From: Pseudoalteromonas ruthenica
GTDB lineage: Bacteria > Pseudomonadota > Gammaproteobacteria > Enterobacterales > Alteromonadaceae
Assembly (NCBI RefSeq): GCF_008808095.1
Contig: NZ_CP023397.1
Span: forward strand, 1 to 64,000
Length of the DNA: 64,000 bases
Direction: 5' to 3'
The notes beneath the pieces were generated by a model. It worked only from the letters and a program-made list of their open reading frames with translations, ran no database searches and had not been told where the DNA came from. Position numbers and translations under genes: made by a program. This document shows, piece after piece, positions 9,773-36,206 of this stretch (positions within the stretch are counted from its first letter, which is position 1; each line of letters starts with the position of its first letter).

Positions 9773-9956
9773 TTAGTAAAAAAGTGATTTGTCCCTGTCG
9801 TTTAGTTAGTAAAAATGTGGTCTGTGATAAAAATAAAGCTCAATACAGTTGGTAAAAAAGTGGTTTATACCGCTGTAAAGGCCCAGTAACCTCTTTAATA
9901 AAGCTCCCCTTGGGGAGATGAACATCGCCTTGTTTGCACTAAGTAAAATGCTGATC
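9773..9956 (+). repeat. Cluster of four motif A copies and a motif B half-site
   Basis: Copies of TTAGTAAAA-N3-TGATC at 9773-9789 (one mismatch), 9806-9822 (one mismatch), 9849-9865 (three mismatches) and 9940-9956 (one mismatch), all in the same orientation. A motif B-like left half TGTAAAGGCCC starts at 9874. The rest of this gap between two terminators (9763-9957) shows no gene. Confidence 0.6.
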
Positions 9957-9957
9957 C

Positions 9958-9983
9958 AAAAAAAGGGCCGATAACGGCCCTTT
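9958..9983 (-). terminator. Rho-independent terminator of aceA
   Basis: On the minus strand, arms AAAGGGCCG and CGGCCCTTT around TTAT, followed by T. It lies just after the aceA stop codon. Confidence 0.85.
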
Positions 9984-10005
9984 CACTGGCAACACACCTT
10001 TTGGT

Positions 10006-11610
10006 TTAGAACTGGTTCATGGTATTGGCTTCGCCGCCTGCTTTGAGTGCGTTTTCGCCGCAGAAGTATTCCTTGTGGGTATCACCAATATTTGAACCCG
10101 CTAGGTCTTGGTGCTTCACTGAGGCTTGCTCTCGACGGATCTCCTGACGTTGCACATCGCGCACGTAGGCAAGCATACCTAAGTCGCCAAAATACCCTTC
10201 AGCAAGAATATCGGTGCTGAGCGCTGCTGTGTGGTAGGTGGGTAAAGTGATCAAATGATGGAAAATACCCGCCTCACGTGCCCCGTCACGCTGGAAGTTT
10301 TGCACATAATGATCCGCTTCTTTGGCTAGTTCTGAGCCATCGAGGCTCGCATCCATAAGCACTTTAGGATCTTGGCTTGGGTCTGGATAAGCACTTAGAT
10401 CGCGGCCATCTTGTTGCCATTGGCTATACACCTGCTCACGGAACTTCAACGTCCAGTTAAATGAAGGCGAATTGTTATACACCAATTTAGCGTTAGGAAC
10501 TTGCTCGCGAACGCGGTTTACCAGCTCCGCAATTTGCTCTACATTCGGCTTCTCGGTTTCAATCCATAGCAAATCGGCACCATGTTGTAAGCTTGTAACA
10601 CAGTCTAGTACTACGCGGTCTTTTTCCGTACCGGCGCGGAACTGATATAAGCCATTATCTAAGCGCACCGGTTTACATAGCTGACCGTTGAGCTTAATGG
10701 CTGTTTCACCTTCTAACAGATCATCCCCCCCAGAAATAGGTTGGGTATCTAAGAAGCTCAAGTATTGGCTAGCAAGATCTCCGGCTTCCTTGCTTACTGG
10801 AATTTTCTGGGTCAAGCTCGCACCTAATGAGTCGGTGCGCGCAACGATGATGCCATCATCAACACCCAGCTCTAAAAAGGCATATCGAACCGCATTGATT
10901 TTGGCCAAGAAGTCCTCGTGGGGCACCGTTACCTTACCGGCCTGGTGACCGCACTGTTTAGCATCGGATACCTGATTTTCAATTTGAATTGCACAGGCAC
11001 CGGCCTCTATCATTTTCTTCGCTAATAGGTAGGTGGCTTCCTCGTTACCAAAGCCGGCATCAATATCGGCAATAATGGGCACCACATGGGTCTCAAAGTT
11101 GTCGATTTGTGCGGTAATAGCTGCAACATCGCCACCTTGGGCCTTGGCCTCGTCCAGTGCCTTGTATAGATGATCAAGTTCACGGGCGTCGGCCTGTTTT
11201 AAGAAGGTATAGATCTCTTCAATAAGCATAGGCACCGCCGTTTTTTCGTGCATACTTTGATCCGGTAATGGACCAAACTCAGAGCGCAATGCTGCCACCA
11301 TCCAGCCACTAAGATAGACATAGCTGCGCTTAGTGGTTTTTTGATGACGTTTAATGGCCATCATCATCTGTTGCGCGGTAAACCCATGCCAACAACCTAA
11401 GGATTGCGTGTACTGGCTTGAATCCCCGTCGTAAGCGGCCATGTCCTCGCGCATCACCTTAGCGGTGTATTTGGCGATATCGAGACCGGTTTTGAAACGG
11501 TTTTGAAGCTGCATACGCGCTGCATATTCCGAATTAATCCCTTGCCACTGCGGTAGGTTGCTCTGACGAAGGCTGCTTAACGTGTCGATGTGTGCGTTGT
11601 AGTTTGTCAT
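10006..11610 (-). CDS. aceA: Isocitrate lyase
   Basis: First glyoxylate-shunt enzyme: cleaves isocitrate to succinate and glyoxylate in the cytoplasm, allowing growth on acetate and fatty acids. The 534-residue length matches the longer isocitrate-lyase class found in Pseudomonas aeruginosa and many marine gammaproteobacteria. The catalytic cysteine lies in KQCGHQAGKV, and the metal and substrate residues are in DIDAGFGNEEATY. It is divergent from glcB across 216 bases, so the pair supplies the two dedicated shunt steps and is probably coregulated from the shared intergenic region. The ATG has an AGGA Shine-Dalgarno element. An own terminator follows. Confidence 0.96.
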   Translation of the reverse strand: MTNYNAHIDTLSSLRQSNLPQWQGINSEYAARMQLQNRFKTGLDIAKYTAKVMREDMAAYDGDSSQYTQSLGCWHGFTAQQMMMAIKRHQKTTKRSYVYLSGWMVAALRSEFGPLPDQSMHEKTAVPMLIEEIYTFLKQADARELDHLYKALDEAKAQGGDVAAITAQIDNFETHVVPIIADIDAGFGNEEATYLLAKKMIEAGACAIQIENQVSDAKQCGHQAGKVTVPHEDFLAKINAVRYAFLELGVDDGIIVARTDSLGASLTQKIPVSKEAGDLASQYLSFLDTQPISGGDDLLEGETAIKLNGQLCKPVRLDNGLYQFRAGTEKDRVVLDCVTSLQHGADLLWIETEKPNVEQIAELVNRVREQVPNAKLVYNNSPSFNWTLKFREQVYSQWQQDGRDLSAYPDPSQDPKVLMDASLDGSELAKEADHYVQNFQRDGAREAGIFHHLITLPTYHTAALSTDILAEGYFGDLGMLAYVRDVQRQEIRREQASVKHQDLAGSNIGDTHKEYFCGENALKAGGEANTMNQF

Positions 11611-11826
11611 TATAGGTATCCTTTGAACGGGTAACTGTTTAATTGCCCCAAAGCCAATGTGAGAGTGCTCGGTGCGTTGTATTTTTACCCTAGGACGAAT
11701 TGGGTTGATTTATTAAATTTATAGTTATTATTGTGGCTATATTTTTAATGAATGGGGTTTGGGTTCACATCAGCGCTTTTTCAGTTACAGTGAAATGACT
11801 AACTTCTTCGTTTAAAGGAAACGCAC

Positions 11827-14010
11827 ATGACCCAGCGCATCTCTCACAGCGGCTTGGCTATTGATGCTCAGCTTTATCAATTCATAACTGAGCAAGTCCT
11901 GCCGCACACTGAACTCGATACTGAACGCCTGTTCGCGGGTTTGGCCGATATCATTCAGCGCCTTACTCCCATCAATAAGGCATTACTGGCGAAGCGGGAT
12001 AGTTTGCAGAAGCACATTGACGGTTATTATCAGAAAAATACTAAAGATAACCATGATGAATATACCCAGTTTCTAAAAGACATCGGTTATTTGCTCGAGC
12101 AACCACAGCAGGTTAGCGTAGAAACCGAGGGTGTAGACGATGAAATCGCGCGCATGGCTGGACCGCAGCTTGTGGTGCCAGTGAGTAATGCACGCTTTGC
12201 CCTAAATGCCGCCAACGCCCGCTGGGGCTCCTTGTATGATGCACTGTATGGCAGCGATGTGATCAGTGAGGAAGAAGGCGCAGAGCAAGGTAGCCAATAC
12301 AACCCTGTGCGCGGTTTTAAGGTCATGGCCTATGCGCGACAGTTCCTAGATAAAGCGTTACCGCTTAAAAGCGGCTCACACATTGAAAGTACCGAATATG
12401 CGATAAACAATGGCGAGCTTGTGGTTATTTTGGGTGACTCTCAGCAAGTAACCCTCGCTGAGCCCTCGCAGTTGATTGGCTATCAGGGTCAACCTGAGCG
12501 CCCGACTGCGTTGCTATTTTGTCATCATGGCCTGCACTTTATTATCGCCATCGACCCACACAACCGCATCGGCCGCGACGACAAAGCTGGCATTAAAGAC
12601 ATCGTACTCGAGTCTGCTCTAACCACCATCATGGACTGTGAAGACTCTGTCGCTGCCGTTGATGGCGAGGATAAAACACAAGTTTATCGTAACTGGTTTG
12701 GGCTGATGATGGGAAACTTGAGCTGCGAATTTTCCAAAGGTGGGCAAACTCAAACACGGCGCCTTAATAGGGATCAACATTTTACTAAGTTAGATGGCTC
12801 GTCGCTGACCCTTCATGGCCGAAGCTTGATGTTTGTTCGCAATGTCGGTCACCTGATGACAACACCCGCCATACTAGACAGCGATGGTAACGAGGTATTT
12901 GAAGGCATATTGGATGCGGTCTTTACTAGTTTGTGCGCGCTTCCCGAATATCACAGCCGCTCCGAGTTAGCTAACTCGCGCACTCAGAGTATTTATATCG
13001 TTAAGCCTAAAATGCACGGCCCCGAGGAAGTGGCCTTCACCGCGCAGTTATTTAGTGAAGTGGAGGCTTTATTAGGTCTTCCTAACAATACCTTGAAAAT
13101 GGGGATTATGGATGAAGAGCGGCGTACTTCGGTGAATTTGAAAGCCTGTATTGCGCAAGCGAAACAGCGCGTGGTCTTTATTAATACCGGCTTTTTGGAC
13201 AGAACCGGCGATGAGATCCATACTGCCATGGAGGCCGGTGCGGCATTGCCAAAATCGGCAATTAAAGCTCAGCCTTGGATAGATGCCTACGAGAAACGCA
13301 ATGTCAGTATTGGCCTAGAATGTGGCTTAAGTGGTAAAGCACAAATAGGTAAAGGCATGTGGCCAATGCCAGATAAACTGGCGTTAATGATGGAGCAGAA
13401 AATCGGCCATGTGAAATCGGGTGCCAACACCGCCTGGGTGCCCTCCCCGACTGCCGCAACCTTACATGCCCTTCATTATCATGATGTTGATGTATTCGCG
13501 CAGCAAAAAACATTATCAGCACAAAGCCAGCAGTCCTTTAGAGACTTACTCACACCGCCGATTGATAATCAGCAACAACTCAGCGCCGAAGATATTCAGC
13601 TCGAACTCGATAATAATGTGCAAGGCATTTTGGGGTATGTTGTGCGTTGGGTAGAGCAAGGCGTTGGTTGTTCAAAAGTGCCCGATATCAATAATGTCGG
13701 CTTAATGGAAGATCGCGCGACATTACGGATATCGAGTCAACATATTGCCAATTGGCTACACCATGGTATTTGCACCGAAGAGCAAGTCCTGAAGACCATG
13801 AAGCGTATGGCAAAGGTGGTTGATGAGCAAAACGCAGGCGATAGCCAGTATAAAAATATGGCTGATAGTGAACAAAGTTTACTTGATAGCTTAGCGTTTC
13901 AAGCTGCGACAGATTTGGTTTTCAAAGGTAGATCACAGCCCAATGGCTATACCGAGCCGCTTTTGCATCATTACCGCCGACTGTTCAAAGAACGCCAAGC
14001 GTCGATGTAA
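11827..14010 (+). CDS. glcB: Malate synthase G
   Basis: Condenses glyoxylate with acetyl-CoA to malate, the second shunt step. The 727-residue length and insertions are those of the monomeric G form rather than the shorter A form. Recognisable parts are the [17 protein letters not shown] active-site stretch (acidic Mg2+ ligands, about 264-280), [14 protein letters not shown], and the C-terminal catalytic segment around [13 protein letters not shown]. The start is set by AAAGGAAAC upstream. Two dispersed motifs fall in this gene: an exact motif A copy at 12772-12788 and an exact motif B palindrome that includes the stop codon. Confidence 0.96.
12772..12788 (-). repeat. Motif A copy inside glcB
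   Basis: Exact match to the core TTAGTAAAA-N3-TGATC on the minus strand (N3 = TGT). In the gene it is read as Asp-Gln-His-Phe-Thr-Lys. Confidence 0.6.
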
Positions 14011-14022
14011 AGGCCCTTTACA
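14006..14022. repeat. Motif B palindrome over the glcB stop codon
   Basis: Exact TGTAAA-GGCCC-TTTACA. The TAA stop codon of glcB (14008-14010) is part of the left half-site. Confidence 0.65.
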
Positions 14023-14027
14023 GCAAT

Positions 14028-14057: not shown

Positions 14058-14067
14058 ATTAACGCTA

Positions 14068-19219: not shown

Positions 19220-20437
19220 ATGCGCTTACTCCACACCTCAGATTGGCACTTGGGTCAGCTTTTTTATGAGCATACTCGAGTGCAAGAACATCACGCCTTT
19301 CTAACCTGGCTTATTGGTGAATTAAATCGCCAAGCTGTTGACGTACTGTTGATTAGCGGCGATATCTATCACACTGCCACTCCGCCAACACAAGCGGAGA
19401 ATCAGCTTTATGAGTTTGTTAAAGCGGCTAAAGCAGCCTGCCCTACCCTACATATAGTGATTATTGCCGGTAATCATGATAGTGCGAAACGCATCACCAC
19501 AGCACAGCCATTACTGGCACAGTTTGACACTCATGTAGTCGGTCGCTTTGATTTTCAGCGCCCCGAGTTGAGTGTCATTAACATTACCTGTGGTGATCAG
19601 CACTGTGCGATTCTTGCCCTGCCCTATCTGCGTGCCAGTGATATCCCTGATGCACAAATGAGTTATGCTCAGGCGGTCAAAGAGGCCTACCAACTTATGC
19701 TTGAGCAATGTCAGCTTGAGGACGACTCCAATGTTATCGCCATGGGCCATCTACATGCTCGGGGTGCCACTGTCAGCGAAGACTCGGAGCGCGCTTTAGT
19801 CATTGGCGGTGAAGATGCCATCGGCGCTGATGTTTTTCCGTCCCAAGCCTGTTATGTTGCCCTCGGCCACTTGCATAAAGCGCAAAGTGTTAACGCTAAA
19901 GAATACATTCGTTACAGTGGCACGCCCTTCGCGATGTCGTTTTCGGAACGTCAATATCATCACCAAGTTTTGCTGTTAGAGGTACAAGATAATGCCTTGC
20001 AAAGTGTCAACCCCCTTTACATTCCTCGGTATCGGCAATTACACCTTGTTCCCGAGGCGACTCTCCTGCCGCTAGCTCAAGTATGTGAGCAGGTTCGGCA
20101 GTTACCCGGCCCTGATGATGAGCAAGGGTACATTCGCGTTCGCCTCTCGAGTAAAGAGCTTGCCACCGACTTTCGCGAGCAAATCGAGCATGCACTTCAA
20201 GGCAAAGATTTACTTTTTTGTGGCGTGGAACGGGTGCGCTCGCAACGGGAGAGTAAAAACGATGAACTTGAACTACAAGACTTATCGCAAGTAGAGCGCC
20301 TAGACGCTGCGCACTTATTGAGTGAAGCCGTCAATGAGCATGATGAGCTTGAAGATCACGATATTACCAACGAGGTTAAAGACTTGTTTGCGCAGTTAGT
20401 ACAGGATGTTGAGCAGGAGGGGAATAATGAAGATTAA
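19220..20437 (+). CDS. sbcD: SbcD exonuclease subunit (Mre11-type)
   Basis: Nuclease subunit of the SbcCD complex that cuts DNA hairpins and protein-blocked ends. The 405-residue protein has the metallophosphoesterase motifs in order: TSDWHLGQ (residues 6-13), SGDIYH, AGNHDS, then MGHLHARG and LGHLHKAQ. Together these form the two-metal site. It overlaps sbcC by 11 bases, the usual operon order. A motif B copy lies in the gene at 20005-20021. Confidence 0.95.
   Translation: MRLLHTSDWHLGQLFYEHTRVQEHHAFLTWLIGELNRQAVDVLLISGDIYHTATPPTQAENQLYEFVKAAKAACPTLHIVIIAGNHDSAKRITTAQPLLAQFDTHVVGRFDFQRPELSVINITCGDQHCAILALPYLRASDIPDAQMSYAQAVKEAYQLMLEQCQLEDDSNVIAMGHLHARGATVSEDSERALVIGGEDAIGADVFPSQACYVALGHLHKAQSVNAKEYIRYSGTPFAMSFSERQYHHQVLLLEVQDNALQSVNPLYIPRYRQLHLVPEATLLPLAQVCEQVRQLPGPDDEQGYIRVRLSSKELATDFREQIEHALQGKDLLFCGVERVRSQRESKNDELELQDLSQVERLDAAHLLSEAVNEHDELEDHDITNEVKDLFAQLVQDVEQEGNNED
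20005..20021. repeat. Motif B copy inside sbcD
   Basis: TGTcAA-CCCCC-TTTACA, 11 of 12 positions. Coding context. Confidence 0.5.
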
Positions 20438-23400
20438 TCGCCTGCAAATTCATAATTTAGCATCATTATTAGACGCAGACATCGATTTCAGCCGCCCTCC
20501 CCTGCGTGATGCTGGCTTGTTTGCCATAACCGGTGACACAGGGGCTGGAAAAAGCACTATATTGGATGCGCTGTGTTTAGGCTTATATGATAAAACTGCC
20601 CGGTTGAGCAATGAAAGCACACAAAAAGTAGACTTTAATGGTGACAATGTACGCCTCAATGATCCGCGTCATCTATTGCGTCGTGGTACCGGTATAGGAT
20701 GGGTCAAAGTTGATTTTGTGGCCATCGATGGCGCCCATTACCGCGCCCTCTGGCAAGTGACCCGAGCACGTAAAAAACCAAACGGTAAATTACAAGCACC
20801 CACTCATGCACTGTACCTTATGCCGCAAGAGCAGTTGGTGAGTGATGGTAAGCTCGAGACAAAAAAAACCATTGAGCGGTTAGTTGGGCTTAACTTCGAG
20901 CAGTTCACGCGTGCGGTGATGCTAGCACAAAATGAGTTTTCTGCTTTTTTACGTGCGCAAGGCGATGAGCGTGCAGTATTGCTTGAGCGTTTAAGTGGTA
21001 CACAAAAGTACTCTGTTGTAGGTCAACGCGTGTATTCTGGTTACAAAGCCAAGCTTAATGACGTCGAGGCATTTAAGGCTTCTATGGATGCGGTTGATAT
21101 TCTTGATGAGCAACAATTACAGGAGCTTAACGAGCAGCAACATCAGTATATCGAGCAGCAGCAACAATGCCAAAAACGACGAGAACAGGTTGCTAAACAC
21201 CTCCAATGGTTCGCAGCCGAGCAACAATTACAACATGAAATCGCTGACCTTCAACAGCGTATACAAACTACGAGTAACAGCCTAGAGCGATTAGAACCCA
21301 GGGTGAGAGAGGCTCAGCGAGTTAAGCAATGTTGGCAAATTGAAGATAACCTTACTTCCACAGCACGATTGCAACAGCGTTTGGCGCAACAGCAAACTCG
21401 CCAAGAAGAGCTAACACGCAGTGATGCTAAAAGTGTATGGCAACACGGCGAACAGCAGCAAAAATTAGCACAACAACAGCTGCGCCATGCGCAACAGCAA
21501 TATGCGCAGCGCAAAGAAAAACTCAATGCCGCCGTGGCACTGGATGTAAAAATTGCACAAAAGAAGGAGGTGCTCGCGGCAAAACGCTCTGAGTTCGAAC
21601 AGACGAGCGCACAGCAGCTGCAATTGACGCAGCAAAGCCAAAACCTCGCTGCACAAGTGGATGAAAGTAATAGACGCCTTGATAAATACACGACGCAATT
21701 AGAATCACAACCTTGGCTCGCTGAGTTAGTAAAAAATTGGTCTCATTACCATCATCTTTGGCAGCGTATTAATAGTTATGATGCTACATATAAAGAAAAA
21801 AACGAGCAGTTACAGGCATCTAATAACGAGCTTTCAAAGCTTGATCAAAGCCTTGCCACACTCAATGAAGAAAACACCACATTCCTGCAGTCGATACAAG
21901 CACTCGAGCAGCAAATAGTAAGTTTACAGCCGCAGCCTGAAGCGTTGTCTGCAAGTGAACTTCAGCGTCAGTTAGGCACATGGCAACAGGCCTTAGAGCG
22001 TTTTCAACAATGGCATAGTAGTAACCATAAGCTTGTAACTGTGCGTCATCAACAGCAATCTCTTCATGCAGAGCTTAAACAAAAGCAACAACAGCTGCAT
22101 GAGGCTTCGCAACATCACTCAGTTTTAGAGCAGCAATTGTCGCATGCACGCCAGGCTTATGAGCAGGTTAAACTGCGTGCAAGCGAGCAGATCACGCATT
22201 TACGTACTCAGCTTAAAAGTGGTGAGCCTTGTATGGTGTGTGGTTCTGAACATCATCCTTTTGCTGAAAATGATGACAATAATCATGTTTTTGCTGCGTT
22301 ATTAGCGGACTTTGAACAGGCTTACGCAACGGCTCAAAAGAATCTGGATCAGCATTATACTAAGCGGCATGCTTTGCAAACCGAGATACAGTTAGCACAG
22401 CAACAAATTGATAATGTCAGCGCTACTGAGCAACAGCTGAAGTCGCAGCTACAACAATTCGCGCAGCAGCTAGAGCCCTTTATTCAAGGTAAACCCCTTG
22501 ATGAGCTTAGCGATCATGACTTTACTAAGCCTATCGCGGATATCCAACAGCAATACCAGCAGTTGGAACAGTTAGAGCAACAGTTAGTAAAATTACGATC
22601 TGAGTTAAAGGTTCAGCAACACAACAGCGGCGAATTGCAGGGGCAATTACAAAGCAGTGAACAGAGACGTCAGCAACTGCAGCTACAAACGCAGCGTCTT
22701 GCTTACGAACTTGAAACTGAGCAGCAGCAATGCCAACAGAGCATCGCAGAGCTACGAGAGCACTTCAGTGAAGCGCCATGGTGGCAAGATAGTCTGCATC
22801 AGCTTGCGAAACTTTGGCAGCAATTGGTTGAGCAAAAACAGCAATTTGAGCAGCTGCAAAATGAGTACGCCCGGGCCGAACAACAGACTACGCAGCTTAA
22901 TCAGCAGCGAGATCAGATTTTTACTAAGCTAGAGTCACTGCAATCTCAGCAGCAAAAGCTGGGCGAGCAACTGCAAATGCAAGAGCAAGAGATCACTCAT
23001 TTACTAACTGAGCGCATTACTCTTATAGCTCATGGGCAAGATCCCAAAGCGCAACTAGAGGAGCTGGAAGAGTCTATCGAAAAGGCTCAGCAGACACTGG
23101 ACACGCAGCAAGCAGCGTGTCAGCAACAGCAGCGCCGGTATGAGCAGGAGCAAAGTGAATACCAGCACTTAGTAAAAAATTGTTCCCAGTTACAACAAGA
23201 CATTGAAGAGTTAAAAAAAGCCTTTGATGTCTGGTACCAGGACTACAGAGCCTTTGATGAGGCCTTAACAATTGAGCAGATCAAAAATTTACTAACTCAA
23301 GACAAGCAACAAGTACAAGCAGTACTCACTGAGCACGCAACATTAGAGCAAACGAAAGTGCGCTTTCAGGCTCAGCTAGAACACAGTGAGAGTCGCTCAC

Positions 23401-25283: not shown

Positions 25284-25817
25284 CTATAACTTGATATGGG
25301 TGTGGATGAGCTCACAAAGAATATCGATTTTGGCGTTATTGAGTTGTCGGTAATCAAAATAGGGGCACACGATAATACGTTGTGTGGGCGATATAGCGAA
25401 CTCATCGTTAAGCCAGATCAGATTTATACCAAGTTGTTCATTTGCTGCGAGCTCTTTAGCATGAGTTTTTCCGGCAATAATATGTAGCGCTGCGTCAGGG
25501 TCGGTTACGTCAGGCTTGCTAAAGAGCAACGCCGTTTGTGAGTGGTTTTGCAGTAGTGTTTGATCTCTAAATTGTTGCCATGTGTCTACACTTTTTAAGG
25601 CCAAACAACTAGGAGCCAGTTGATATAGCCACTTTGCATAGACATTAAATACTTTTCGCCAACCGTTCCCTGCCTCTGCGTTTATTTGTTCTATCTGCCC
25701 TGCTTGCAATGGCAAGGTATCGCTTAAAGTTTGAAACTGAATCAGGTTTGGGCGGTTTTTTACATACACTCTGATTGCCGCATCGCTTTGCCCTAGGCCT
25801 ATCGCTTTTATTGTCAC
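25284..25817 (-). CDS. Conserved hypothetical protein
   Basis: The 177-residue protein begins MTIKAIGLGQSDAAIRVYVKNRPN and has no signal peptide or membrane helix. Tryptophan and aromatic residues are frequent, and the C-terminal stretch is IIVCPYFDYRQLNNAKIDILCELI. I recall similar proteins as an uncharacterised DUF in Alteromonadales but cannot give a function. It is on the same strand as the response regulator, 77 bases upstream, and could be cotranscribed with it. Confidence 0.65.
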   Translation of the reverse strand: MTIKAIGLGQSDAAIRVYVKNRPNLIQFQTLSDTLPLQAGQIEQINAEAGNGWRKVFNVYAKWLYQLAPSCLALKSVDTWQQFRDQTLLQNHSQTALLFSKPDVTDPDAALHIIAGKTHAKELAANEQLGINLIWLNDEFAISPTQRIIVCPYFDYRQLNNAKIDILCELIHTHIKL

Positions 25818-25843: not shown

Positions 25844-25860
25844 TTAGTAAAAAACTGATC
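25844..25860 (+). repeat. Motif A copy
   Basis: Exact TTAGTAAAA-N3-TGATC (N3 = AAC). Intergenic, between the hypothetical gene and blc. Confidence 0.65.
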
Positions 25861-25985: not shown

Positions 25986-26498
25986 ATGCGCGCACAGATC
26001 ATAATTTTACTAACGGTTGTATTATCTGCTTGTACTTCTGTACCTGACAAAGTGTCCCCAGTTAGCCCTTTTAATTTAGAGCGTTACATGGGCACATGGT
26101 ATGAAATAGCCCGTATGCCCCACCCTTTTGAAGAAGGCTTAAGTCGCGTCACTGCGACGTACAGCCAGAATGATGATGGCAGCGTCAAGGTCATTAATCG
26201 CGGCTTTAACGCAGAAGAGCAACAATGGTCCCAAGCTGAAGGTAAAGCCAAGTTTGTTGGCGATCCGAATACTGGCCATCTTAAAGTCTCTTTCTTCGGC
26301 CCCTTTTATTCCTCATATGTTGTGTTTGGATTAGACCAAGAAAACTATCAATATGCTTATGTAAGTGGTTATAACACTGACTATGCATGGTTACTCGCGC
26401 GTGAAAAAGAAGTTGATGAGCAGCGTTTAGAAGACTTTAAAGAGCAACTTAGAACAGCGGGGTTTGCGGTAGAGAAGCTGATTGAGGTGCAGCAGTAA
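25986..26498 (+). CDS. blc: Lipocalin family lipoprotein (Blc)
   Basis: Outer-membrane lipocalin that binds fatty acids or lysophospholipids, associated with membrane stress. The 170-residue protein has a lipobox LSAC (Cys at about 16), the lipocalin signature YMGTWYEIARMP, and the later conserved YAYVSGYNTDYAWLLAR. The start is supported by TTGGAG upstream. An exact motif A copy (25997-26013, minus orientation) encodes part of its signal peptide, so the DNA motif and the hydrophobic leader overlap. Confidence 0.92.
   Translation: MRAQIIILLTVVLSACTSVPDKVSPVSPFNLERYMGTWYEIARMPHPFEEGLSRVTATYSQNDDGSVKVINRGFNAEEQQWSQAEGKAKFVGDPNTGHLKVSFFGPFYSSYVVFGLDQENYQYAYVSGYNTDYAWLLAREKEVDEQRLEDFKEQLRTAGFAVEKLIEVQQ
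25997..26013 (-). repeat. Motif A copy within the blc signal-peptide codons
   Basis: Exact TTAGTAAAA-N3-TGATC on the minus strand (N3 = TTA). Confidence 0.65.
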
Positions 26499-26561: not shown

Positions 26562-26600
26562 GATCAGTATTTTACCTACTTATTAGTAAAATACTGATCT
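26561..26600. repeat. Inverted pair of motif A
   Basis: Perfect 15-base arms AGATCAGTATTTTAC and GTAAAATACTGATCT with a 10-base spacer. The right arm is an exact motif A copy (26583-26599); the left is a two-mismatch copy. A degenerate copy follows at 26607-26623. With the 3' end of blc at 26498 the hairpin might also act in termination, but there is no T run. Confidence 0.7.
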
Positions 26601-26622: not shown

Positions 26623-26964
26623 TTATTGACTGGCAATCAGAATAGTTGTAAGCACTGCTAGTAGTGAAGCCGTGCAGCAAAAGGTCAGTGCTTTGAGCCA
26701 TTTCGGGCTGAAGCTAAGACACAGTGTGATGGCCAATACACTGACCGCCATAAACCCGCAGAACAGTAGTACCCCATAACTACCCAGCGCGGCAATCGCT
26801 ATGGTCATGCTTAGTAAAATACTGATCCAAGCACAGATCAAAATTTTACTAACTAACCGAGCATTGGGGCGCACACCATATATATCTCGGTAATGGGTCG
26901 CTTTGGCATGCGCAAAGCAACTAAAAGCGATGATACACAGTATAAAGCAAAGCAATTCTATCAT
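26623..26964 (-). CDS. DUF3325-family membrane protein
   Basis: A 113-residue protein with an N-terminal hydrophobic segment and further membrane helices, in the position that DUF3325 proteins hold at the end of siderophore-uptake operons. Its ATG overlaps the stop codon of the PepSY gene (ATGA) and follows GAGGAG, so I start at 26964 and not at the upstream in-frame codon. Two motif A copies in inverted orientation fall inside it (26811-26852). Confidence 0.7.
   Translation of the reverse strand: MIELLCFILCIIAFSCFAHAKATHYRDIYGVRPNARLVSKILICAWISILLSMTIAIAALGSYGVLLFCGFMAVSVLAITLCLSFSPKWLKALTFCCTASLLAVLTTILIASQ
26811..26852. repeat. Second inverted pair of motif A
   Basis: Exact plus copy 26811-26827 (N3 = TAC) and exact minus copy 26836-26852, eight bases apart, inside the DUF3325 gene. 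Confidence 0.65.
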
Positions 26965-28526
26965 ACGCTTAACTCCTCTAACGAGCCCAACCAAGTGCGC
27001 TGCTTGCGGTTACCACGATAGGCCGCGTAGGCGAAGCAGGTTGCTGCAAATAAACAAACTAAATCGAAGCCCAACAAAGTCCATTGCTGGCTATCAATAA
27101 AGTGCAGCAAACTGCCCTGCGTGGTCATGCTGTTAATGGCAACAAGACCGATACAGGCGCCAGCAATGATGGCATTTAATAATCGCCAACTATAAGGCTT
27201 GAATACCGCCCATGCTTGCACCGCTGCCCAGGTAAGAAAGAAAGCGAGTATCTCTTTGTCGGCGCGCTCACTCACATGCATTGGCAATAACCGATTGGCA
27301 TAAAAAAATGCCAAGGTTGCTAAAGGCAAGCCCATAAAGGTACCCAGGTTAAGGCTATCTACCGTGCGAAGACCTATCGCGGGGCGCTGCTTTTTATTGC
27401 GTTGGTGTAAGCGTTTTGCCCACATGATTGCGCCGCTCGCTATCATGATACACCCTGCTAAACCGCATAATACGTAAAGCCAGCGCAACACGGGCTGTGC
27501 CATGCGCGCCGCATGCAAGGCTATCATGCCATCGTAGATGGCTTCACTGACGCTTCTATCTACTTCATTAATGTCTATCACCTCGCCCGTCATGGCGTTA
27601 AACGTGATGCTTGGCGGCCTGTCGACAATGGCCTTGCCGCTATCAATAGTAAAGCGTACCGATGCACTGCGATCGTTAGGGTGGTCAATACGTACTTGCC
27701 TTATATCTGCATCCGGCCACTTAGTATAAAGTTGATCCAGCAGTGTATTAACACCCACCATGGCTGTGGGCTCGTTGGCAGGCTCGGTGCGTTGAAAGTT
27801 AAAGACATCGGCATAGAAGCCGCGTAAACCATCGTCGTAGGCGGTCATCGTTGGGTAGGGGAAGAGCATAAAAATAAGGGTAATAAGCCCTGTATAGGTG
27901 ATCATGATATGAAAAGGCAGCGCTAGCACAGACGATAAGTTATGGCTATCAAGCCAGCTGCGTACGCCTTTATTGGTGCGCAAGCTAAATAAATCCTTAA
28001 AGATCCGTTTATGAATGACCACCCCAGTTATTAGCGCAATAAGCATAAACAAGCTGGCAAAACAGACCAGCCAACGTGCTGTTCTGACGTCGAGGTAATG
28101 CAAATCAAAGTGCAGGCGATAAAAGAAATGCCCACCTTTGGATTCTCTGACTGTATCGACCCCCTCTAGCGTTTTAGGATTGACATAGTAATCTTGCCAA
28201 GGCGCACGTTTACCGGGTTCTCGTGGTTCTTGGTAAGAGTAGGTAAGCCAGTCTTTACGCTCATCAGCCAAGGAAATATTCCAGCGTTCGGACTTAGGTG
28301 CCTGTTGCTGTAAGTATGCAAATCCTTGGATTATTTGAGCTTGCTGCGCGGCAACACGCTGCTGGGGCTGTTCAAAATGATGTATCTCAGGTTTAGCCCA
28401 AAAGTTGAGTTCCCAACGGAAAAACGCAAGCGTGCCAGCAATAAATATGAGAAAGAGTAACCAACAGACCAATAAACCTACCCAGGTGTGTAGCCATGTC
28501 ATTGAACGAAAGAAGGTGTCCTTCAT
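26961..28526 (-). CDS. PepSY-associated membrane protein
   Basis: Four-helix PepSY_TM protein (521 residues), a family linked to ferrisiderophore reduction or uptake. It begins MKDTFFRSMTWLHTWVGLLVCWLLF, with the paired membrane helices and periplasmic PepSY-like regions typical of the group. The start at 28526 overlaps the stop of the DUF3649 gene (ATGA) and has GGAGG upstream. The DUF3649-PepSY-DUF3325 order is the standard cassette that usually follows a TonB receptor; no receptor is present here. Confidence 0.85.
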   Translation of the reverse strand: MKDTFFRSMTWLHTWVGLLVCWLLFLIFIAGTLAFFRWELNFWAKPEIHHFEQPQQRVAAQQAQIIQGFAYLQQQAPKSERWNISLADERKDWLTYSYQEPREPGKRAPWQDYYVNPKTLEGVDTVRESKGGHFFYRLHFDLHYLDVRTARWLVCFASLFMLIALITGVVIHKRIFKDLFSLRTNKGVRSWLDSHNLSSVLALPFHIMITYTGLITLIFMLFPYPTMTAYDDGLRGFYADVFNFQRTEPANEPTAMVGVNTLLDQLYTKWPDADIRQVRIDHPNDRSASVRFTIDSGKAIVDRPPSITFNAMTGEVIDINEVDRSVSEAIYDGMIALHAARMAQPVLRWLYVLCGLAGCIMIASGAIMWAKRLHQRNKKQRPAIGLRTVDSLNLGTFMGLPLATLAFFYANRLLPMHVSERADKEILAFFLTWAAVQAWAVFKPYSWRLLNAIIAGACIGLVAINSMTTQGSLLHFIDSQQWTLLGFDLVCLFAATCFAYAAYRGNRKQRTWLGSLEELSV

Positions 28527-28843
28527 AGCCATTCCTCCATGAACGCCAGCAGAGCGGTGAGCGCTGCACTAGTTAGTAAAATAGTGATCCATACCTTAGC
28601 GACAGAACGCACACTAAAGGCATAGATGAAGATACAGGCATATATCAATATCGATAAGCTTACAGCCAGTAATACCGCGTCACTAGGTTGTAATGGCAGG
28701 GCGACCCCTAAAACAGCTGTGCTTAAGGCAGTTAATAAATAGCCTCCAACAATGGCGGCAATAAAGCGATAAACCACAAGGGCGCGATAATGAGAGCTGG
28801 CGATACGTAACTTGATGAGCCAGGGTGATAACTGAAAATCCAT
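28523..28843 (-). CDS. DUF3649-family membrane protein
   Basis: First gene of the three-gene membrane cassette. The likely start MDFQLSPWLIKLR gives 106 residues with about three hydrophobic helices (FIAAIVGGYLLTALST, LAVSLSILIYACIFIYAF, ITILLTSAALTALLAF). An upstream in-frame ATG at 28876 is possible, but neither start has a strong Shine-Dalgarno sequence. Function unknown beyond association with iron uptake. A motif A copy is inside the gene at 28573-28589. Confidence 0.65.
   Translation of the reverse strand: MDFQLSPWLIKLRIASSHYRALVVYRFIAAIVGGYLLTALSTAVLGVALPLQPSDAVLLAVSLSILIYACIFIYAFSVRSVAKVWITILLTSAALTALLAFMEEWL
28573..28589 (+). repeat. Motif A copy inside the DUF3649 gene
   Basis: Exact TTAGTAAAA-N3-TGATC (N3 = TAG). 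Confidence 0.65.
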
Positions 28844-31279: not shown

Positions 31280-34254
31280 AACTTCTGTGGCTTTTTCTAT
31301 TGACCTCAATGACAGCGTTATCAGCACCTAGTTTTGAGGCTGGTAAAGGATACCCTGAGCATACTCAGTTCTTACTTTATCCTTATATCGATATGGCGTA
31401 CCGCTATATTGATGAGGGTCGTTATGAGCTCGCTAATGAAGAGTTGAATAAGGCATTAGCTGTAACGCCGAATAACCCCTATGTAGTGGAGCGATTGTTA
31501 TTTGTTGCGGCTCAGCAGCAACATTGGCCTCAGTTATCTAAGCTTATAAACCAGTACCTACAAGTGCTTATGCGGCAGCGGAAATGGCGTGAAGTATTGT
31601 TACACTTTCAACAACTTGGGCTTAAGCATCAAGCTGAGTTGTTTATTGTGTACACTGATCAGCTTTTGGCAGATGAGCGCTTTAGTATCACCCAGCGCAC
31701 CGAACTAGCTGCGTTAAGTGCACAAATGATAAGCGAACGAGCTCGCGCGCAGTTCATCCATCGAGTGATCACTCGTTACGGGCTCGAAGAAGTTCGCCCA
31801 GCCTATTGTTTTGCACTGCTAAACGAAAAAAAGTATGACGCAGTTGCCAGTTGTATTAATGATATAACTCACCCAGAGCAGCAAGCCAGTGTGCGTAAAC
31901 ACTTGATACAAGCGCTTTTAGGAGCGCAACATTTCAAGGTGGCTAGTGAGCAGTTTAGCCTCTATCAGCAACACGTTGCATTGAGTGAGCAGGAGCGTCG
32001 CCAATGGTTGCAAGCGGCGATATACAACAAAGATTGGTCACTTGCTTTGACGCTTAATGACGCGCTACCAAGGGCTATCTCGCGTCTATTGCAAAGAGCT
32101 GATATTGCCATGCAAGCTCAGCAACCAGAGGTTTTATCGCGAACCATGGCGGCGTTAAGTGAAGCCGAGTTAAATATAGAACAAGAGCAGCAGTTACTTG
32201 TGCTCATGGCTTATGCCTCGACTTACTCTCAGCAATGGCGTCAACGCCTGTATGATTACTCATTGCAACACGCCGAAAATGATGAGTTTTGGCGCTCAAG
32301 AGCGGTACAAGTGGCGCAAGCAATGGAAGACCACAGTCAGTGGCTGGCAATATTTGAGGCGCAGCAGAGTCTGAGTGAGGCGCAGCAGCGGCAACTTGCC
32401 ATAGGTTATGAAAAGGTCGGTAATGAAGAAAAAGCCTACCAGCAGTGGCTGTTATTAGCGCACCTTTATCCTCAGCGCTTGAGCTATGCTAAGCAGGCAT
32501 CGCATATGGCGATACAGCGTCAGCAGTATGAGCTAGTTACACATATATTGGCGCCCTTTTGGCCTTTTTCACAACAACAAGATCAAGATGCTGAGCTGAC
32601 CTATCGTTACTTACAAAGCCTCAAGAAAACTCAGCCGGATACGCTCAGTGATGCGCTTGCTTTAGTGCAATCAAGACAAGCATCACCAGCTCAGCGACAG
32701 ACGTTAATGAGCTTCGCCTCAGCTATTGGTGAGTGTCAGTTAGCTGCACAATGGTTGGTTGAGCCTGCGAAAGAGCAAGCTTTACAGCAATTAGGATATT
32801 GCTTTATTGAGCGCGATAAAGAGCGAGCGTATGCGTTGTTCCAAGCGGCCTTAGCAACAAACCCAAGCAGCACTGAAAGCCGGGTTCAACTTGCTCACTT
32901 GAGTGAAGTGCTTGGCTTGCATGTGCGGGCGTATGAGTACTGGCTAGAGCTTGACTCGCAGCTGACAGAACAGCCGCACTTTTTTAATGCTATTGCTAGT
33001 GCGTTGAAAGTCAACGAATACACGCAAGCGATGACATGGTTGCATCGCTTAGTGCGTTTGCATGAGCCTAAAACAATCAGCTTTTATCAATTACAACTGC
33101 AGCTTGCCCGGTATGTTAACGATCTACATACGCAAGAGAAGAGCTTAGTGTGGCTGCTTGAAAACCACCCCGATGTTTCTGAGCAAATAGCTCTGGCTCG
33201 CCTATACTGGCGCCAAGGTAAAACGCAGCAAACGTTCACACTGCTCAGCGATATCGAACGCCAACCTACCGAGACGTTGGCGCTACACACCCAAGCAGAG
33301 CTTGCGTACTTGTATATTGACGTAGGTCGCGCTGCAAAAGCGGCTCCGCTAATGCAGCATTACCTGGCCAATCAACCCGACCTTTATCCTATGCACCAGC
33401 AGCTTGCCTATAGTTATGTTGTTACTAATGAGTTAGATAATGCCCTGCATCATGCCACTATCGCGGCGACTAACATGGACACCATGGAGCTTGCACAGGA
33501 ACCTAAACAACAACTCAAGCGCTTACGGCGAGATTTATTGGCGCAATCACGTTGGTTACTGCAAGCACAATTTGGTGAGCAGTTGAGGCCTATTGATATA
33601 GGCGCTACCTCACAAAGCTTGAGATACGGCGGGTTTATAGAACTGCGTTACAGCAAATATTTACAGCACCACTGGCGTGCGCAGGATACTCATCAGTGGT
33701 ACGCACGGGCTTTTGTACAAAAAGATAGCCAACAACATGACAGCACACTCGCTTTAGGATACAGCTGGCAGCCATTGGCTTCGCTCGACCTCCAGTTTGC
33801 TATCGAGCCGCAGTGGCAGCTGCGCAACAACGATGTCGATATCTTGCTTAAAGCCGCTACGGACTTATTCAGTCTAGGTGGCAATACGCGGGATTGGCAA
33901 ACTGACGCACAAGGGTGGCTGCAACAAAGTTTGTATTTGGAAGCCGCACATTGGCTTAAGTCTGGACGTGATGCGCAGTTCGCACAATACCAAGGTGGTT
34001 ATCACTTTAAATTGCATACTCAAAATCAGCAAGCGCTGACTTGGCAACCTCATGTGAGCGGTCAATGGACGCGCTCGAGTGAGCGTCAAGATACCCGCGT
34101 AGGTGCAGGTGTTGGGGTGCATTGGTGGTCAGGAGGTGATGATATAACCGCATATCGCCGCCAGGCCTCGCTAAAACTATTAATACAGCATGTTCTCAAC
34201 GGTGAACGAGAGGGCGATAATGTGGCAAGTTTGAATCTGGAGTGGTCATGGTAG
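31276..34254 (+). CDS. nfrA: NfrA-like outer-membrane exopolysaccharide secretion protein
   Basis: The 992-residue protein has a signal peptide (MKLLWLFLLTSMTALSA), a long helical TPR-type region (about 35-720), and a C-terminal beta-barrel-like segment beginning around 750 with RYGGFIELRYSK and HHWRAQDTHQWYARAFVQ. In E. coli NfrA is the outer-membrane receptor of phage N4 and the export partner of NfrB. The start codon overlaps the nfrB stop (ATGA). It probably exports the NfrB product and could be a phage entry point. Confidence 0.8.
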   Translation: MKLLWLFLLTSMTALSAPSFEAGKGYPEHTQFLLYPYIDMAYRYIDEGRYELANEELNKALAVTPNNPYVVERLLFVAAQQQHWPQLSKLINQYLQVLMRQRKWREVLLHFQQLGLKHQAELFIVYTDQLLADERFSITQRTELAALSAQMISERARAQFIHRVITRYGLEEVRPAYCFALLNEKKYDAVASCINDITHPEQQASVRKHLIQALLGAQHFKVASEQFSLYQQHVALSEQERRQWLQAAIYNKDWSLALTLNDALPRAISRLLQRADIAMQAQQPEVLSRTMAALSEAELNIEQEQQLLVLMAYASTYSQQWRQRLYDYSLQHAENDEFWRSRAVQVAQAMEDHSQWLAIFEAQQSLSEAQQRQLAIGYEKVGNEEKAYQQWLLLAHLYPQRLSYAKQASHMAIQRQQYELVTHILAPFWPFSQQQDQDAELTYRYLQSLKKTQPDTLSDALALVQSRQASPAQRQTLMSFASAIGECQLAAQWLVEPAKEQALQQLGYCFIERDKERAYALFQAALATNPSSTESRVQLAHLSEVLGLHVRAYEYWLELDSQLTEQPHFFNAIASALKVNEYTQAMTWLHRLVRLHEPKTISFYQLQLQLARYVNDLHTQEKSLVWLLENHPDVSEQIALARLYWRQGKTQQTFTLLSDIERQPTETLALHTQAELAYLYIDVGRAAKAAPLMQHYLANQPDLYPMHQQLAYSYVVTNELDNALHHATIAATNMDTMELAQEPKQQLKRLRRDLLAQSRWLLQAQFGEQLRPIDIGATSQSLRYGGFIELRYSKYLQHHWRAQDTHQWYARAFVQKDSQQHDSTLALGYSWQPLASLDLQFAIEPQWQLRNNDVDILLKAATDLFSLGGNTRDWQTDAQGWLQQSLYLEAAHWLKSGRDAQFAQYQGGYHFKLHTQNQQALTWQPHVSGQWTRSSERQDTRVGAGVGVHWWSGGDDITAYRRQASLKLLIQHVLNGEREGDNVASLNLEWSW

Positions 34255-35084
34255 GGCGATATACAGCAATGATAGCGTTGCTGCTATGCAGCATAGCTGT
34301 GCAAGCGAATGTGGTTATTTATCAGCCATTAAATAGCGACAGCGAGCTAACAAAGGGCCAATGGCAAGAAATAATGCTGCAGTTACGAGAGCGTCAAATT
34401 GATACCATTGCCCTGCAATGGAGCCAGCATGAGCATAGCCAGTTCATTGATGCAGAAGGCCGCTCTCGACTACAGCAACTTTTTCATCAAGCCAATGCTC
34501 AAGGATTAAAAATAGTCGTTGGGCTGTATCATGAAAATAGCTACTACCAACGCATTCAACAGCAACCTCGAGCACTACACTTTTATCTGCGCGGCTTGTA
34601 TAACCGTCATCTCGACGTTGCCCGACGCTGGCAAGCGTTTACTAAACTGCCAGCATTTGCTGGTTGGTATATCAGTGATGAAATCGATGACCTTAACTGG
34701 CAAAGCCATGCAAAACAGCAATTGTTAATCGATTACCTCAGCGCTTTGAATGATCAATTAGCCACTCTTGCTCCTGCTAAGCCAGTGTATATCTCAAGCT
34801 TCTATGCGGGGCATAGTTCACCGCGACAATATGCTTATTTACTTGAGCGGTTAGCGCAGCACACCGACCTGGAATTACTGTGGCAAGATGGAGTGGGTAC
34901 TCAAGTTCTATCAAGCGATCAGCGTCAGGCAGTGCAAAAATATGTTTGCCAAAAGGGGAGTCATATTCACGTTATTGCAGAAATATTCAATGAGTCTGTG
35001 GAGCACAGGCTAAGCGATGAGTGCCGACCAAGCTGGTTTTTTTCACTGCGCTACATGCTACCTAACTACTTTGCTAGTGAATGA
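34248..35084 (+). CDS. DUF4434-family periplasmic protein, probable glycoside hydrolase fold
   Basis: The 278-residue protein has a signal peptide and a TIM-barrel-like domain with VVIYQPLNSD, FAGWYISDEIDDLNW (acidic pair DE at the expected catalytic position) and VYISSFYAG. DUF4434 proteins resemble family-10-like glycosidases, and a gene of this kind accompanies nfrAB in enterobacteria. It overlaps nfrA by seven bases, so it likely trims or processes the polysaccharide. ATG 34248 is preceded by GGAG. Confidence 0.7.
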   Translation: MVGRYTAMIALLLCSIAVQANVVIYQPLNSDSELTKGQWQEIMLQLRERQIDTIALQWSQHEHSQFIDAEGRSRLQQLFHQANAQGLKIVVGLYHENSYYQRIQQQPRALHFYLRGLYNRHLDVARRWQAFTKLPAFAGWYISDEIDDLNWQSHAKQQLLIDYLSALNDQLATLAPAKPVYISSFYAGHSSPRQYAYLLERLAQHTDLELLWQDGVGTQVLSSDQRQAVQKYVCQKGSHIHVIAEIFNESVEHRLSDECRPSWFFSLRYMLPNYFASE

Positions 35085-35094
35085 CTCGGTAAAG

Positions 35095-35111
35095 TGTAAA
35101 GGGGGTTGCCA
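35095..35111. repeat. Motif B copy
   Basis: TGTAAA-GGGGG-TTgcCA, 10 of 12 positions, just after the DUF4434 gene. It overlaps the start of an inverted repeat GCCACA/TGTGGC. Confidence 0.5.
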
Positions 35112-35162
35112 CAATATGTGGCTAGCCCTTAGGCTAAGCAAAAACAATATACCTAAGTGAAG

Positions 35163-35726
35163 ATGCAACTAGCAGATAAGATTCGTGCTTGCACTTTATG
35201 TGCCGAGCATTTGCCTTTGGCGCCTAAGCCTATTATTCAACTTGATAGTGAGGCACCTATTCTAATTGCTGGTCAAGCACCCGGAGTGCGAGCTCACCAG
35301 GCTGGCAAACCGTTTGCCGACGCCAGTGGCGATCGCCTCAGGCAATGGTTAGGAGTCAATGAGCAGCAATTTTATAACCCGCGCTTATTCGCTATCGCGC
35401 CGATGGGGTTTTGCTATCCTGGCACCGCTCAGCACGGAGATTTAGCCCCGCGAGAGGAGTGCGCTGTAACATGGCGAGAGCAGGTGTTAGCTGCCTTACC
35501 TAAGCGGCAGTTGACCCTCGTCCTTGGTCAGTATGCAATGGCTTATCATCTACCCAAACGTTATAAAACGCTCACCGCTGCGGTGCAAGACTGGCATAGT
35601 TATTGGCCACACACCTTAGTTTTACCTCATCCAAGCCCTCGTAATAACCGCTGGTTCAAGCGTAATCCGTGGTTCGAACAAGAAGTACTGCCGCATCTGC
35701 AACAGCGAGTGGCCGATTTACTCTAA
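35163..35726 (+). CDS. Uracil-DNA glycosylase family protein
   Basis: The protein of about 187 residues has the family fold with motif GQAPGVRAHQAGKPF (substrate loop), the Fe-S type pair CTLC near the N terminus and the HPSPRNNRW loop. This suggests a member of the iron-sulfur UDG group. The catalytic water-activating residue cannot be placed with certainty, so activity on uracil is not proved. GTG at 35157 is an alternative start. It overlaps the 3' end of the MarR gene by nine bases. Confidence 0.8.
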   Translation: MQLADKIRACTLCAEHLPLAPKPIIQLDSEAPILIAGQAPGVRAHQAGKPFADASGDRLRQWLGVNEQQFYNPRLFAIAPMGFCYPGTAQHGDLAPREECAVTWREQVLAALPKRQLTLVLGQYAMAYHLPKRYKTLTAAVQDWHSYWPHTLVLPHPSPRNNRWFKRNPWFEQEVLPHLQQRVADLL

Positions 35727-36206
35727 GCCCGCTTGCTGTAAATAGGCTTGTAAACCCGATAGCAGCTGCTGATGCTGTTCACGGCTGAGCCCAGCTAACA
35801 GTGCTTGCTGGGTTTCTACATGAGCCTGGATCACTTCTTTACTAAGTGCTAAACCTTGCTCTGTAAGCTGAACCCAACATATCCGCTTATCCTGTTGATC
35901 TTGCGATCTAGTGATCAGCTGCTGTTTTTTCAGCTGGTTTAGGCGGCTGGTCATACTGCCTGAGGTCACTAGCATTTGTGTTAACAGTTGATTGGGCGTG
36001 AGCCGATAAGGCGGGCCCGAGCGCCTTAACGTCGCAAGCACATCAAAGCCTGCTTCGGAAAGCCCGTAGCGGCGAAATGTTTTGCTCATTGCTAAGGTCA
36101 TATGCTTGTGGGCGATTTGCAAACGACCAATTAATGCCATGGTAGAAGTATCTAATTGTGGCATCTCCCGAGCCCACAGCGCTTGTATATTATCTAAATT
36201 TTGCAT
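35718..36206 (-). CDS. MarR-family repressor
   Basis: The 162-residue protein has the winged-helix with LTPNQLLTQMLVTSGSMTSRLNQLKKQQLITRSQDQQDKR, the usual MarR recognition helix and DxR wing. It is divergent from the catalase-like peroxidase and cytochrome b561 genes, with a perfect palindromic operator between them, so it most likely represses them and itself. A start at 36206 is the best compromise; longer in-frame starts exist. A one-mismatch motif A copy is inside the gene (35829-35845). Confidence 0.85.
   Translation of the reverse strand: MQNLDNIQALWAREMPQLDTSTMALIGRLQIAHKHMTLAMSKTFRRYGLSEAGFDVLATLRRSGPPYRLTPNQLLTQMLVTSGSMTSRLNQLKKQQLITRSQDQQDKRICWVQLTEQGLALSKEVIQAHVETQQALLAGLSREQHQQLLSGLQAYLQQAGLE
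35829..35845 (-). repeat. Motif A copy in the MarR gene
   Basis: TTAGTAAAG-N3-TGATC on the minus strand, one mismatch. Read in a different frame from the sbcC copies. Confidence 0.55.

Follow-up and report, generated by a model that had tools for sequence, protein, structure and literature searches.

Motif A, a 17-base element with GATC at one end, is very probably the binding site (iteron) of RepA, the replication initiator of a Pseudoalteromonas chromid of 848 kb (contig 2, C2). Its copies are scattered within the opening 64 kb of this chromid (this whole 64-kb stretch is referred to as the window). On the evidence of sequence and position, it is highly likely that such RepA iterons occur in three sets: at the chromid origin, as dispersed sites beside the origin where RepA would be titrated, and in an array on chromosome 1 that would have a crtS-like action. 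In Vibrio, the trigger that chromosome 1 provides for the second chromosome has been worked out in detail. For Pseudoalteromonas, the available sections of Xie et al. 2021 describe synchronous termination of both chromosomes in two species and suggest a chromosome 1 trigger, with nothing crtS-like found and the mechanism left open (PMC7858055), and the available part of a 2026 survey still calls for such 'timers' in other lineages (PMC13342612). The accessible text of the open-access PMC literature, which takes in neither preprints nor most subscription papers, held no report of Motif A or of a chromosome 1 site in Pseudoalteromonas. Conserved candidate sites on both replicons are now available for deletion or relocation in a marine bacterium that is harmless.

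The window holds 24 copies of Motif A (eight exact, 12 with one mismatch and four with two; Table 1), against 0.38 expected from 100 shuffles, the largest of which gave two, and the whole 4.12-Mb genome holds 30 copies at up to one mismatch, against three of the motif read backwards. These counts confirm the claim of a preliminary description that the motif is real and non-random; its eight exact matches are all present at the positions and on the strands it gave, and the 'about ten' further one-mismatch copies that it mentioned exist but number 12. C2 holds 27 of the 30 genomic copies and chromosome 1 holds three, and from 36 kb to 847 kb of C2 there are only six copies at up to two mismatches, approximately the shuffle level scaled up. 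Motif A is therefore not spread genome-wide, and the suggestions of a nucleoid-protein site or an uptake-type signal were rejected on these numbers. In 39 outgroup genomes without RepA, 120 copies were found against 80 of the reversed motif (3.1 and 2.1 each), which is near background, and no two copies lay less than 1 kb apart by eye. In Pseudoalteromonas sp. THAF3, all 30 sites found at up to two mismatches in the window (24) and origin (six) have a counterpart at the matching place, and 28 of these are identical to the letter.

Table 1. Partition genes and Motif A copies in the window.
Feature	Position	Strand	Remarks
parA of chromid	161..1399	+	412 aa; first gene past origin; PF13614 7e-29; TIGR03453; 'AAA family ATPase' in THAF3
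parB of chromid	1409..2374	+	321 aa; NF010252 7e-28 and TIGR00180 6.5e-13, both under curated cut-off; adjoins parA
Motif A, 2 mismatches	9207..9223	-	
Motif A, 1 mismatch	9773..9789	+	no GATC
Motif A, 1 mismatch	9806..9822	+	no GATC
Motif A, 1 mismatch	9940..9956	+	
Motif A, exact	12772..12788	-	in glcB (malate synthase G)
Motif A, 2 mismatches	20354..20370	-	sbcD end
Motif A, 1 mismatch	21726..21742	+	no GATC; in sbcC
Motif A, 1 mismatch	22347..22363	-	in sbcC
Motif A, 1 mismatch	22512..22528	-	in sbcC; THAF3 copy exact
Motif A, 1 mismatch	22584..22600	+	in sbcC
Motif A, exact	22911..22927	-	in sbcC
Motif A, 1 mismatch	22991..23007	-	in sbcC
Motif A, 1 mismatch	23169..23185	+	no GATC; in sbcC
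Motif A, 1 mismatch	23279..23295	-	sbcC codon 958; codon and phase shared with G008 and G021
Motif A, 2 mismatches	25416..25432	-	in DUF6942 gene
Motif A, exact	25844..25860	+	intergenic
Motif A, exact	25997..26013	-	lipocalin gene start
Motif A, 2 mismatches	26562..26578	-	intergenic
Motif A, exact	26583..26599	+	intergenic
Motif A, exact	26811..26827	+	DUF3325 codon 56; fixed letters identical in 7/7 species
Motif A, exact	26836..26852	-	in DUF3325 gene
Motif A, 1 mismatch	27721..27737	+	PepSY codon 266; fixed letters identical in 7/7 species
Motif A, exact	28573..28589	+	codon 127 of 148-aa gene; in 7/7 species (2 with one mismatch)
Motif A, 1 mismatch	35829..35845	-	in MarR-family gene (35718-36269)

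A chance association of an AT-rich 5' half with a common GATC would fit the abundance of the 5' half alone, of which 273 half-sites occur between 40 and 840 kb of C2, but this explanation is refuted by the counts in the window and genome and by the sparse, unclustered copies of the outgroup genomes, and it retains almost no probability. When only the 5' half is used to choose half-sites, 16 of 30 are followed by GATC between 9.7 and 36 kb of the window, as are 6 of 6 at the origin of this genome (G000), 344 of 512 across 74 origins, and 130 of 149 across 35 chromosome 1 array loci; none of the 273 half-sites above and none of 48 in the array flanks has GATC after it. It had been proposed that the fixed part always ends in GATC, but it does so in only 16 of the 20 window copies with up to one mismatch (exceptions are marked in Table 1). 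Dam is present in all six genomes searched. Since GATC is near-invariant in the sites (base counts at origin sites refer to sites picked at up to two mismatches), Dam methylation may gate RepA binding; if so, an array newly copied, and hence half-methylated, could briefly free RepA towards the origin.

The earlier placing of all copies within 9.7-36 kb holds for the window, but not beyond it, where contig 1 has a degenerate array and six of the 30 genomic copies lie in the gap between repA and parA (C2:847774-848206), across the circular junction from base 1 of the window. This gap would thus contribute at least six RepA sites to the origin proper. Motif A is found upstream of repA in all 74 chromid-type repA loci, at two to seven copies each with up to one mismatch, and according to the available text of one study the minimal replicon consists of RepA and ori2 (PMC7858055). 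Four Pseudoalteromonas plasmids carry a RepA with 48-50% identity to chromid RepA, and three of these (48-49%) were compared for iterons: pKCTC22325 has three exact copies of Motif A after repA, and the other two have AGATC-N(2-3)-TTTAC-type iteron arrays before repA, which are related to Motif A although neither plasmid has a copy of it at up to two mismatches. Motif A thus follows the initiator family, with exact copies in one of the three plasmids, related arrays in two, and near-background numbers in the RepA-less outgroup, and the suggestion of a replicon-maintenance site was right in kind, as the motif accompanies the chromid replication initiator.

Chromid RepA has no credible family (best Pfam match E 0.06; none in NCBIfam), and a phmmer search of solved structures at E 1 gave three weak matches of unrelated kind and no RctB. 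By fold, however, its top match in the PDB is to domains 2-3 of RctB, the initiator of the second chromosome of Vibrio cholerae, although the match is partial and comes from a middling model (whole-chain TM-score 0.25/0.36, 13 Å rmsd). RepA is also approximately 27% identical to IncA/C-type RepA over approximately 90% of its length, which connects it to the RepA of IncA/C plasmids through sequence, as the fold match connects it to RctB.

Given that parAB is the next locus and that the sites are found to its side of the origin, no more than 36 kb away, Motif A might be taken for parS of the chromid ParB, scattered over tens of kb from parAB as in other bacteria. This is very unlikely: Motif A is not palindromic, and it follows RepA rather than ParB, given that on plasmids whose partition genes differ, the RepA relatives still adjoin Motif A or motifs akin to it. 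In two of the three plasmids examined, the partition genes either belong to another type or lie at a distance. The plasmid pTML1 has its own ParAB adjoining its repA. ParB at 60% identity or above occurs in only 12 records, all of them chromid-sized Pseudoalteromonas replicons. Repeated perfect palindromes (12, 14 or 16 bases, or 7+7 separated by 1-3) with at least three copies were absent between -20 kb and 64 kb of C2.

As putative RepA sites, the dispersed copies are markedly one-sided. In 15 genomes with full site lists and a known place of repA (G020, G113 and G117 were left out), 246 sites lie on the par side of the origin within 130 kb, against two on the other side; a further 16 lie outside 130 kb, 11 of them in G046. 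When C2 is divided into 43 segments of 20 kb, 41 have a positive GC skew, suggesting a single replication fork, with the skew evidence for this mode coming from G000 only. A single rightward fork would replicate the dispersed copies, 9.2-36 kb from the origin, within approximately its first 4%, and the window copies look, by their position, like a RepA sink in the origin flank that is copied first. Their early doubling would be expected to titrate or handcuff RepA and thereby prevent a second firing of the origin. Extra initiator sites placed near the origin for early doubling are a feature of systems of the RctB/crtS type, and the dispersed copies match this by position.

Copies occur on both strands, within and between genes, as had been observed, and also enter PepSY and DUF6942 genes. 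The gene names given previously agree with family matches and with the THAF3 annotation for malate synthase G, SbcC, lipocalin, DUF3325 and MarR, whereas the gene called DUF3649 has no Pfam match at E 0.001. Three intragenic copies shared by seven species are identical at all 14 of their third-codon positions, against approximately 46% elsewhere. By this comparison, in which the copies were not sampled blindly but chosen as already known to be shared, the DNA letters of the three copies are under selection. Other places turn over, with only one of eight sbcC sites common to G000 and G008/G021, and the corresponding stretch of G047 has none of these places.

The chromosome 1 array consists of helically phased, inverted Motif A-type sites between fbaA and phoB. 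In the 17 genomes of the same genus with at most eight contigs, all 17 have at least four sites within 560 bp of fbaA, and this is the unbiased count, since many array loci were retrieved by searching for the array. From 61 such loci, 18 without fbaA (11 on a contig with repA, one a short stretch of the G113 chromosome 1 array, and six others) and eight second loci of a genome were skipped, leaving 35 genomes. At least four sites lie within 560 bases of fbaA in 34 of the 35, with minus sites before plus sites in all 34, and in G113 the array lies 1.5-1.8 kb from fbaA but still between phoB and fbaA. Array sites were called by a loose rule (up to two mismatches, or GTA plus N-GATC with up to four), and the species are related, so that counts over species are not independent. 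Same-strand spacings fall near whole helical turns, in a test that treats neighbouring values as independent though they are not, and the site columns are better conserved than the remaining columns in all seven species groups. The array of G000 is degenerate, with one of six sites at up to one mismatch and five at two. G001 has an intact array, but its one-contig assembly contains neither repA nor tus, and its chromid is probably missing from the assembly. An element at the array centre, CTAASTTATTGATY, is present in many species but absent from G000; the consensus for it was derived from these same sequences, and no claim is made for it here.

The resemblance of this block to an origin, together with the occurrence of copies on either strand and both within and between genes, might suggest the footprint of a very small mobile element, as proposed previously, or the relic of an integrated plasmid origin. 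This is scarcely credible, as the 40-base flanks reveal no longer common unit by eye, some copies share codon and phase across species, no repA lies beside the G000 array, and conservation is higher in the arrays than in the sequence that separates their sites.

A conserved site at one place on chromosome 1 is a further feature of systems of the RctB/crtS type, and the array agrees with this in place and sequence. It is a candidate for the role that crtS has in Vibrio, whereby the passing chromosome 1 fork would act on chromid initiation, and it may help to time the copying of the two chromosomes; given that it is built of iteron-like sites, it may work like crtS rather than be crtS. More specifically, and tentatively, the array could well be the replication-timing switch of Pseudoalteromonas, which would hold RepA, become half-methylated by fork passage and fire the chromid. 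If true, two-chromosome synchrony would have a second solution, one made from ordinary iterons and unlike Vibrio crtS.

A timing test was performed on the 15 genomes above, with replication termini assumed to lie opposite ori1 and site positions compiled by hand and compared once with the site lists. The distance from array to antipode exceeds chromid length in all 13 genomes taken as one-fork, by 31.5 to 386.8 kb. It correlates with chromid length (r 0.91), but chromosome size acts as a confounder here (partial r 0.51, P 0.07), and the distance from ori1 to the array does not track L1/2 - L2 (r 0.24, P 0.42). The chromids of G002 and G017 are too long for one fork and were treated as two-fork after the fact; their sites still lie on the par side.

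The timing data do not demonstrate tuning, and the Motif A copies could be RepA sites of which the chromosome 1 array is a mere sink or handcuffing site without a trigger for the chromid. An iteron-built array could be only a sink, since crtS of V. cholerae is unlike iterons in the available text (PMC11711613). We regard this as possible, though less likely than not, since a plain sink would not need strong conservation, a fixed layout that is inverted and helically phased, or a single conserved location within a chromosome of 3-5 Mb.

The crtS-like reading of the array draws on a wider likeness to V. cholerae, where the available parts of two studies describe a second-chromosome initiator with GATC-bearing iterons, extra sites near the origin that double early, and a chromosome 1 site (PMC3937223, PMC11711613). 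One describes TGATCA iterons of RctB, near-origin titration sites and a chromosome 1 enhancer, and notes one TGATCA hexamer in the crtS region (PMC3937223). However, the RctB iteron is built around TGATCA, whereas Motif A has GATC at one end, and crtS, in the text available, lacks similarity to iterons or 39-mers (PMC11711613), in contrast to the phased iterons of the Pseudoalteromonas array. The datA locus and dispersed DnaA boxes of Escherichia coli similarly form an early-copied initiator sink near the origin, according to the accessible text (PMC3937223), but for a different initiator. The nearest well-known group is the IncA/C RepA iteron plasmids. IncA iterons differ in sequence and lack GATC, so that Motif A itself does not reach that far, and the chromid copies are mixed in strand over tens of kb rather than only tandem; the IncA plasmid p253A nevertheless also has an iteron array after repA.

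The 17-base dispersed element (motif A) of the preliminary description is real and lies at the positions reported there, with eight exact, 12 one-mismatch and four two-mismatch copies in the window, or 24 where 0.38 would be expected at up to two mismatches. The whole genome holds 30 copies at up to one mismatch, against three for the motif read backwards, and 27 of the 30 are on contig 2, the 848,326-base chromid of which the window is the initial 64 kb. The distance from repA to parB across the contig junction is 1978 bases, equal to that in the nearest named record, the circular 801-kb replicon of Pseudoalteromonas sp. THAF3, whose RepA is 99.8% identical, which places the chromid origin (ori2) across the junction from base 1 of the window. 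The gap between repA and parA contains six copies at up to one mismatch and additional weaker copies seen by eye. Of the 43 20-kb windows along contig 2, 41 show a positive GC skew, as expected under the one-fork replication that PMC7858055 reports for most Pseudoalteromonas chromids. The fork-barrier gene tus lies where a single fork would end.

Coordinates of the chromid origin genes and the chromosome 1 array (C1, chromosome 1; C2, contig 2; L009, fetched locus)
Feature	Coordinates	Strand	Remark
parA, parB	start of window		
repA	C2:846486-847757	minus	near end of contig 2
tus (Tus-type fork-barrier protein, PF05472)	C2:845564-846436 (L009:7565-8437)		directly adjoins repA, end of contig 2
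Degenerate array	C1:2663543-2663811		four minus sites at 31-base spacing, followed by plus sites

RepA and ori2 were shown in the same source (Xie et al., PMC7858055) to form the minimal replicon. Relatives of RepA are nearly all from Pseudoalteromonas, and the best 80 of 83 gave 74 distinct loci with chromid-type repA, one from an unclassified MAG. All 74 carry two to seven motif copies (up to one mismatch) within 1.1 kb upstream of repA. On the repA/tus side, over flanks that extend no further than about 11 kb, 72 loci have no copy and two have one. Tallying the bases of 413 origin sites, selected with up to two mismatches allowed, gives the consensus TNA[GC]TTAGTAAAANNNTGATCT, in which the TA of GTA and GATC are near invariant. 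When half-sites were picked by the 5' half alone, GATC followed 344 of the 512 found in the 74 origins but none of the 273 found at 40-840 kb of contig 2. Genomes from this order that lack RepA (39 were counted) contain 120 copies at up to one mismatch, an average of 3.1 per genome, compared with 80 copies of the reversed motif. The analysis covered three of the four plasmids that encode a RepA relative at 48-50% identity. In pKCTC22325, three exact motif copies occupy the 1.5-kb gap after repA, whereas repeats of the AGATCGCATTTACACGTT type (16, P. donghaensis plasmid) and the AGATCAGATTTACT type (many, pTML1) precede repA in the others, where the chromid motif was not found at up to two mismatches. 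The reverse complement of the chromid motif is AGATCA-N3-TTTTACTAA, and its build is clearly that of these repeats. The motif is very probably the RepA binding site. A PRTRC-type ParB adjoins repA in the P. donghaensis plasmid, the nearest ParA-like gene of pKCTC22325 is about 13 kb off beside another initiator, and chromid-type ParB at 60% identity or more was seen in only 12 records, all chromid-sized. Passages of Xie et al. (PMC7858055) report no significant RepA match outside the genus; IncA/C plasmid RepA (e.g. IncA plasmid p253A, L264) is ~27% identical to chromid RepA.

A tally of sites across 15 genomes puts 76 at the origin, 246 within 130 kb on the parA/parB side, two within 130 kb on the repA side and 16 elsewhere, of which 11 belong to one genome, G046. 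A dense second cluster of seven copies, seen in this one species, lies there about 184 kb from the origin (G046:C2:479690-480284). With a single fork departing on the parA/parB side, the sites there would be replicated within the first kilobases. Three intragenic sites, chosen because they are common to other species, were compared across seven species, with protein identities to P. ruthenica of 39-55%. Conservation ranks each site first among the windows of its phase (first of 495, 90 and 100), and third-codon positions inside the sites are identical in 14 of 14 cases versus 0.455-0.467 elsewhere, showing that selection at these sites acts on the DNA sequence itself. Not every position is conserved: codon 958 is the only one of eight sbcC sites common to P. 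ruthenica, G008 and G021, and in G047 the sites lie at other places. Seven sbcC copies crowd into less than 1 kb (window 22347-23295); only one is common to the two other species whose sbcC was compared, though THAF3 has all seven. The likeliest role of the window copies, by analogy, would be as sinks that double early and titrate the initiator, as plasmid tests showed for RctB sites in Vibrio cholerae (PMC3937223).

On chromosome 1, five of the six sites in the P. ruthenica array have two mismatches. Site pairs 31 bases apart (up to three mismatches, either replicon) are present in 90 of the 99 genomes of the genus, versus two for the reversed pattern. In each of the 35 genomes with fbaA and an array on the stretch analysed, the array is placed towards phoB from the 3' end of fbaA, within 560 bases in 34 and at 1.5-1.8 kb in G113; in some species a porin gene precedes phoB. 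At least four sites lie beside fbaA in all 17 genomes with at most eight contigs, and the order of minus sites, central gap and plus sites holds in 34 of 34. Same-strand spacings (20-21, 30-32, 41-42, 52-54, 62, 82-83, 93-95, 104 and 113-116 bases) are near whole helical turns; for distinct values the resultant reaches 0.85 with a period of 10.4-10.5 bases, a level that none of 5000 random sets attains, neighbouring values not being independent. Site columns, chosen by motif match, are better conserved than the rest in seven of seven species groups (0.89-0.99 versus 0.52-0.95). Another recurrent sequence, CTAASTTATTGATY, not found in P. ruthenica, lies between the arms in many species (e.g. 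loci L155, L245 and L249). Its distance from the innermost minus site is 9, 31-32, 41 or 53 bases, and it may represent either a different class of RepA site or the target of another protein. One single-contig genome (G001, L157) has an intact array yet neither repA nor tus; its chromid is probably missing from the assembly.

In the proposed mechanism, RepA would bind fully methylated sites at ori2, the downstream sink and the chromosome 1 array. Passage of the chromosome 1 fork would leave the array GATC sites half-methylated, and RepA may then be released towards ori2; alternatively, the doubled array may serve as an enhancer. Either release or enhancer action would fire the chromid, whose fork would immediately double ~20 downstream sites; these would then absorb RepA and hold the origin closed. 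Methylation may gate RepA in this way, a step proposed because GATC is near invariant, dam is present in all six genomes searched and RctB offers a precedent (PMC11711613).

THAF3 encodes a helicase in a single long CDS (L273:5463-8507), whereas at window 2516-5559 the gene is divided between a SWIM-like ORF of 341 aa and an SNF2 ORF of 660 aa. Nine consecutive A occur close to where the first of these ORFs ends, and either a frameshift or a sequencing error may account for the split.
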